The notes beneath the pieces were generated by a model. It worked only from the letters and a program-made list of their open reading frames with translations, was not told the DNA's origin and made no database searches. A program made the position numbers and the translations under genes. A stretch of 44,592 nt of DNA from assembly GCA_002713325.1 (NCBI GenBank), contig PAWD01000008.1:1-44592 (forward strand), read 5' to 3'. Positions 31,276 through 35,303 of the stretch are shown one piece after another. Positions within the stretch are counted from its first letter, which is position 1. Every line of letters starts with the position of its first letter. The stretch is from Nitrososphaerota archaeon. GTDB lineage: Archaea; Thermoproteota; Nitrososphaeria; Nitrososphaerales; UBA213.

Positions 31276-31501
31276 AAAATCATTCAGAAAAAAGCAAATA
31301 TTTAGCTTTCTATTGTTTTATTTACTATCCACAACCCAAAAAAAGGCCATGAATAAGGGATTATTCGATGAATCTGCCATATAATATCCTAAACAAATAG
31401 TCACAAATCACTTTTCTTCATGTATAATTTGATATAGAAGCTCTGATCTGATAGATGTTTTTATGCGGGCCCGTCGGGCATCGATCCCGAGACCACCGGA
31501 T

Positions 31502-31515
31502 ATCTTCAGTCAAGT
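31502..31515 (-). other. tRNA-Lys intron 2, 14 nt, position 37/38
   Basis: ACTTGACTGAAGAT; BHB central helix CTTT/GAAG, bulges TA^A and AT^A, outer helix is the anticodon stem. Confidence 0.8.
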
Positions 31516-31522
31516 TAAAAGT

Positions 31523-31535
31523 TTCACCATTTCTT
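31523..31535 (-). other. tRNA-Lys intron 1, 13 nt, position 30/31
   Basis: AAGAAATGGTGAA; BHB central helix CATC/GGTG, bulges GG^A and AA^A, outer helix AGAG/CTTT. Confidence 0.78.
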
Positions 31536-31747
31536 CCGATGCTCTACCTGACTGAGCTACGGGCCCTAAAACCTCTTCCAAACGCTATAATTTTAGTTTT
31601 GGTTTTTCAGTTGAATTTTTTCTTGTAATTTAGAGAGTATGCGCTTCCGGTAATAATTCCCTCAAACTATTCCTAAATTACTAATATAATAATGAACTAT
31701 AATTCTTGAATGTAAGAATTGTGTGTTGATAAACTACAAATCTAATA

Positions 31748-34964: not shown

Positions 34965-35110
34965 AAAGTATTACATAATGATAGAAAAAAGGAATAAAAT
35001 ATGATAAAAACACTACAAATCTAAACACACCAAACAAAATATGATAGAAAAATCTCATTTAAGAACAATTGAAGTGGGCCCGAAGGGGTTTGAACCCTTG
35101 ACCTACCGGT

Positions 35111-35122
35111 TTCTCATATTAT
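35111..35122 (-). other. tRNA(CAT) intron 2, 12 nt, position 37/38
   Basis: ATAATATGAGAA; BHB central helix CTCA/TGAG (perfect), bulges TA^A and AA^A, outer helix ACCGG/CCGGT. Confidence 0.85.
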
Positions 35123-35151
35123 TATGAGCCGGTCGCTCTGCCAGGCTAAGC

Positions 35152-35175
35152 TTCCCTCCACTCTTTTAGAGTAGT
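35152..35175 (-). other. tRNA(CAT) intron 1, 24 nt, position 9/10
   Basis: ACTACTCTAAAAGAGTGGAGGGAA; inner helix CTACTCT/AGAGTGG with AAA loop; central helix CCCG/AGGG with one G-A mismatch. Confidence 0.75.
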
Positions 35176-35303
35176 TACGGGCCCTCCTAGCTTTCAGCCC
35201 ATAATATGGCTTTCCTCAATAGGACAATCTTGTAGTCCAGATCAAACCCTATATATTTTGCGTAGTTAACAATAGAATGTTAGTTATAGATCTTGAATTA
35301 CAA

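Follow-up and report, generated by a model that had tools for sequence, protein, structure and literature searches.

How are two introns of 13 and 14 nt removed from one archaeal tRNA precursor when their splicing motifs draw on the same nucleotides? The question is raised by a tRNA-Lys(TTT) gene on the minus strand of the window, by which we mean the whole 44,592-nt stretch of Nitrososphaerota contig PAWD01000008.1 that was analyzed. The gene scored 45.3 bits with RF00005 in a search over the whole assembly, and was found neither by ARAGORN nor by a whole-window Rfam scan at the gathering threshold. Its minus-strand parse, with the introns in brackets, is GGGCCCGTAGCTCAGTCAGGTAGAGCATCGG[AAGAAATGGTGAA]ACTTTTA[ACTTGACTGAAGAT]ATCCGGTGGTCTCGGGATCGATGCCCGACGGGCCCG; taking both introns out gives a tRNA of 74 nt in which all four stems pair, the anticodon is TTT and the anticodon loop is CTTTTAA. 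The T-loop (window 31466-31501, minus strand) reads ATCGATG, with A54 and not T54, as it does in G001, a genome of the same family and another genus, and in genes of Nitrososphaerales family f2. The parts of the gene are as follows.

31466..31566, minus strand: tRNA-Lys(TTT) gene, 101 nt, 74 nt mature (RF00005 match and sequence)
31584..31596, minus strand: TATA-like stretch CTAAAATTATAGC, 18-30 nt upstream, a candidate promoter element shared with the upstream region of the G001 orthologue
31536..31566, minus strand: exon 1, tRNA nt 1-30 (intron parse)
31546..31555, minus strand: D-arm TCAGTCAGGT (nt 12-20), predicted partner of intron 2 in the precursor (MFE fold and duplex energy)
31542..31545, minus strand: AGAG (nt 21-24), exon-side helix of intron 1, partner of nt 32-35 (folding)
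31538..31541, minus strand: CATC (nt 25-28), 5' strand of the intron 1 central helix
31523..31535, minus strand: intron 1, AAGAAATGGTGAA, 13 nt, position 30/31 (boundary fixed by relatives with G31)
31525..31528, minus strand: GGTG, 3' strand of the intron 1 central helix
31516..31522, minus strand: exon 2, tRNA nt 31-37, ACTTTTA (intron parse)
31518..31521, minus strand: CTTT (nt 32-35), common to the intron 1 exon-side helix and the intron 2 central helix (folding)
31502..31515, minus strand: intron 2, ACTTGACTGAAGAT, 14 nt, canonical position 37/38 (intron parse)
31506..31515, minus strand: intron 2 nt 1-10 (ACTTGACTGA), putative helper strand for the D-arm (predicted fold and comparison)
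31504..31507, minus strand: GAAG, 3' strand of the intron 2 central helix
31466..31501, minus strand: exon 3, tRNA nt 38-73 (intron parse)

No second Lys(TTT) gene, such as the uninterrupted copy that the earlier note had considered, was found in the assembly (G000; archaeal, 1.46 Mb, 84% complete). The other matches were rejected as candidates, being tRNA-Phe and a tRNA-Arg whose D-loop contains an intron. The tRNA-Lys(UUU) gene, the only one found in this assembly, is probably functional.

The splice registers are ambiguous in this gene alone and are settled by its relatives. Relatives with G31 read CCGG[...GGTGAA]G CTTTTAA CCCGG, and many others have a 37/38 intron alone, at the same point as intron 2. 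Relatives were searched by pattern and by BLAST, and GTDB genomes were scanned once. The distinct tRNA-Lys(TTT) genes so collected have introns at 30/31 together with 37/38 (37 genes), at 30/31 only (11) or at 37/38 only (19); sampling was aimed at 30/31 introns, and the class frequencies carry no meaning. Parsed without a splice-motif term, the central helix of intron 1 pairs 4/4 in 42 of 42 genes and that of intron 2 in 48 of 50, and the larger set gives 48 of 48 for the 30/31 helix and 54 of 56 for the 37/38 helix. The chance expectation for such pairing is about 2% per gene (six of sixteen base combinations, to the fourth power). The central helix of intron 1 in these 48 genes is CACC/GGTG (33 genes), CATC/GGTG (nine), CACT/GGTG (four) or CGCC/GGCG (two), the last being a compensatory change. 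Central pairing in the two-intron layout is far beyond chance. With the RF00005 match, the relatives confirm the coordinates, the introns (13 nt at 30/31, 14 nt at 37/38) and the motifs as the earlier note had drawn them.

Neither intron has an intron-side helix, and the strict BHB form, with two symmetric 3-nt bulges and helices on both sides, is thus replaced in both by a relaxed bulge-helix-loop (BHL). Each has a 4-bp central helix beside the 3' bulge, paired 4/4. Archaeal BHB/BHL tRNA introns at 37/38 and 30/31 share with this gene the positions, the 4-bp central helices, the 3-nt bulges and the presence of an endonuclease alpha subunit; unlike them, both tRNA-Lys introns are without an intron-side helix and have 5' splice sites that lie in loops. 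Among the proteins of this genome is a splicing endonuclease alpha subunit (PF01974), whose closest PDB relatives are the alpha subunits of A. pernix and S. tokodaii. The lysine at the position of A. pernix K44 is conserved in the alignment, and in A. pernix the loop with K44 confers broad specificity (PMC6379350). No beta subunit was found in the 84% complete assembly, and a fused endonuclease model search of the genome returned alpha only. Judging from sequence, both introns would be cut by the tRNA-splicing endonuclease, with the alpha subunit bearing the CSL lysine as the candidate enzyme.

The conflict of both motifs over CTTT, as noted earlier, holds. An intron at 30/31 uses nt 32-35 for its exon-side helix and an intron at 37/38 uses them for its central helix; the intron positions dictate the clash, and no such pair can avoid it. 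In addition, nt 27-28 of the anticodon stem are drawn into the central helix of intron 1. Strict exclusivity with such short introns had been considered the unusual part. That view does not stand, as the exclusivity is geometric and widespread (introns down to 12 nt) and ordered removal is published: the paper on tRNAscan-SE 2.0, which searches for introns iteratively, states that closely placed introns have to go one ahead of the other (PMC8450103).

In ViennaRNA folding, which treats unmodified RNA, ignores tertiary contacts and proteins and fails to fold even the mature tRNA-Lys into a cloverleaf, the intron 1 motif with its exon-side helix rises in cost from 0.3 kcal/mol in the precursor to 11.8 kcal/mol with intron 2 removed (1.6 and 13.2 under a stricter definition of the 5' bulge). 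The intron 2 motif costs 11.9 kcal/mol in the precursor and 1.4 kcal/mol after removal of intron 1, and is thus predicted to be unavailable until intron 1 leaves, as expected of nested introns. The motif of intron 1 was cheaper than that of intron 2 in all 31 double-intron precursors folded, and across these genes the intron 2 motif became several to more than 10 kcal/mol cheaper once intron 1 was out. With the acceptor and T stems enforced, or at 55 and 75 C, the direction was kept for the tRNA-Lys gene with smaller margins. These models make it plausible that intron 1 leaves first, as the earlier note had proposed.

A broad-specificity endonuclease might instead cut either intron independently from its minimal central hairpin, in no fixed order. 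The (alpha-beta)2-type enzymes with a CSL loop do cleave relaxed motifs (PMC6379350), and the CSL-loop lysine is conserved in this genome's alpha subunit; we nevertheless consider independent cutting improbable, as both minimal hairpins formed together cost 14.8 kcal/mol and the intron 2 motif is costly in every folded precursor.

The earlier account missed the predicted pairing of the 5' end of intron 2 with the D-arm, through which the introns would depend on each other besides competing. In the MFE fold of the precursor, intron 2 nt 1-10 (ACUUGACUGA) are paired with D-arm nt 12-20 (UCAGUCAGGU), in a helix that runs on into AGAG/CUUU and CAUC/GGUG, interrupted only by a bulged UA and, at the 3' splice site, the AAA bulge, lengthening the intron 1 motif to a predicted 14 bp or so. 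The duplex is worth -14.8 kcal/mol, and none of 500 shuffles was as good (p = 0.002). In the order's micro-intron genes (L015, the present gene, L030, L095, L132, L133 and L135), intron 2 cuts the predicted cost of intron 1 by 6-12 kcal/mol. Shuffling intron 2 with its last 6 nt kept abolished this effect in L015 (0/100 as good, mean 7.8) and weakened it in L030, L053, L095, L132, L133 and L135 (1-3/100 as good). Several genes with a strong helix of their own in intron 1 showed no effect of the shuffling. In the G001 gene and some relatives, folding predicts that intron 2 would stay paired with the D-arm after loss of intron 1, with the intron 2 motif still at 4-8 kcal/mol (6-8 kcal/mol in G001).

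It may be that simple steric competition or nesting orders splicing and that the pairing of intron 2 with the D-arm is incidental. Competition for nt 32-35 and 27-28 is indeed real and general, nested archaeal introns and their sequential removal have already been described (PMC3978253; PMC8450103), and the prediction that intron 1 goes first extends to all 31 folded genes, D-arm helix or not. We judge this explanation unlikely, as D-arm complementarity beats shuffles and is nearly absent from genes with a 37/38 intron only. Tested on the first 11 nt of intron 2, complementarity at p<0.05 was found in 21 of 37 double genes and in 1 of 19 with 37/38 only (Fisher p=1.4e-4, from counts that are not independent, the homologues being related); the 1 in 19 also led us to reject D-arm complementarity as a general trait of 37/38 introns. 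Swapping introns among the double genes reduced the pairing from -9.6 to -7.6 kcal/mol, with 0 of 5000 permutations as good when relatedness is ignored. Also arguing against incidental pairing are pairs in which both partners have changed, at D-loop positions 16 (U-A, C-G) and 17a (A-U, U-A), while the register hardly varies, with the reservation that the pairs scored came from predicted duplexes, which biases them towards pairing. D-arm pairing is moreover stronger where intron 1 is without its own helix (Spearman -0.56). The intron-side helix of intron 1 is kept in 11 of 11 genes with a 30/31 intron only, and is absent in about half of the double genes.

The putative helper pairing was seen in Nitrososphaerales families f1, f2, f5 and f13 and in Nanohaloarchaeota, perhaps three lineages. 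In family f2, where the 37/38 introns reach 66 nt, their 5' end is still complementary to the D-arm and the rest has diverged. The helper is not universally needed, because four double genes (L131, L138, L155 and L193) have neither an intron-side helix nor a significant D-arm helix. No description of such a pairing was found in the open-access literature. That the helix serves another purpose, for example blocking the cloverleaf against early maturation, modification or charging, fits with its predicted disruption of the D-stem and anticodon stem in the precursor, but would leave its confinement to genes with a 30/31 intron unexplained, and we give this possibility very little credence.

We conclude that reciprocal dependence of the introns through D-arm pairing probably fixes the order of splicing in the tRNA-Lys(UUU) precursor; the positions, motifs and complementarity are read from the sequence, and the accessibilities and order are modelled. 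In the precursor, intron 2 nt 1-10 would pair with D-arm nt 12-20, and the resulting helix would extend the stack past AGAG/CUUU (nt 21-24 paired to nt 32-35) and the central helix CAUC/GGUG. The stack would provide intron 1 with a strong exon-side helix in place of the absent intron-side helix, and would at the same time mask the motif of intron 2. Cutting out intron 1 would remove the scaffold and let the D-stem and anticodon stem refold, whereupon CTTT could pair with GAAG and intron 2 would leave last. Were intron 2 to leave first, intron 1 would be without support. We infer that the endonuclease acts on these predicted conformers. The broader reading, that the 37/38 intron is a cis helper which builds the 30/31 splicing motif, with mutual dependence and a single order kept in Nitrososphaerales and Nanohaloarchaeota, seems to us marginally favored.

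The new element is the reciprocal dependence through predicted D-arm pairing; the gene class is ordinary and the ordering is of a known kind. Nested or crowded multi-intron archaeal pre-tRNAs were reportedly described by Sugahara in 2007 and by Tocchini-Valentini in 2009. There, as here, the motif of the later intron forms only after the earlier intron is out, whereas in tRNA-Lys the motif of the earlier intron is predicted to rely on the later intron as well, via the D-arm. Cyanidioschyzon merolae pre-tRNAs follow the order predicted for tRNA-Lys: non-canonical introns are removed first, in sequence, and the 37/38 intron always goes at the end (Soma 2013, as covered by PMC3978253 and PMC9602550). 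The C. merolae motifs fold independently and the order follows motif stability, in contrast to the folding of tRNA-Lys, where the intron 1 motif is costly without intron 2.

Multi-intron tRNAs are usually put down to accidental intron gain, tolerated by the endonuclease. If the proposed dependence is true, one intron has become a structural cofactor for another, and both are locked into the gene, since the intron at 30/31 would be stranded by prior loss of the one at 37/38. It would also account for the shrinkage of introns to 12-13 nt with no helix of their own, and makes a clear prediction on splicing order and on epistasis between the introns.

The two-intron layout is not rare but common in archaea. 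Double-intron Lys genes occur in several Nitrososphaerales families, Bathyarchaeota, Aigarchaeota, Nanohaloarchaeota and other DPANN, and two Baldrarchaeota matches appear to resemble them. The G001 orthologue has introns of identical length, 13 and 14 nt. In family f2, intron 1 shrinks to as little as 12 nt and a 30/31 intron is present in 7 of 7 genomes searched. The tRNA-Lys(TTT) genes of order family f12 (L046, L047, L050) have a T-loop intron besides that at 30/31. Bathyarchaeota-type tRNA-Lys(TTT) genes have an apparent third intron in the D-loop (L153, L158, L161, L162, L164, L166, L170, L172, L173, L188, L192, L194, L195); among them, a D-loop GAGG goes with CCUC in intron 2, and CAGG often with GCCU, matches that hint at the same helper pairing.

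The tRNA genes of this genome are rich in non-canonical introns. Acceptor or D-region introns are present in Ala(GGC), Gln(TTG), a D-arm case, and probable Gly(TCC) and Arg(TCT) genes (L020, L022, L023, L026, L103), all missed or truncated by standard finders. A tRNA-Met(CAT) gene in the window (35075-35184, minus strand) has the 37/38 intron ATAATATGAGAA and, near 9/10, a second intron of about 24 nt, ACTACTCTAAAAGAGTGGAGGGAA, that contains a 6-bp inner helix; its G001 orthologue (L106) has the 37/38 intron only. The tRNA-Phe(GAA) gene (L014 1501-1590; L104) carries a 30/31 intron of the tRNA-Lys type, ending GGGGTGAT, in which GGTG pairs with CACT; this intron is kept in G001, and transposition between the Lys and Phe genes is possible.
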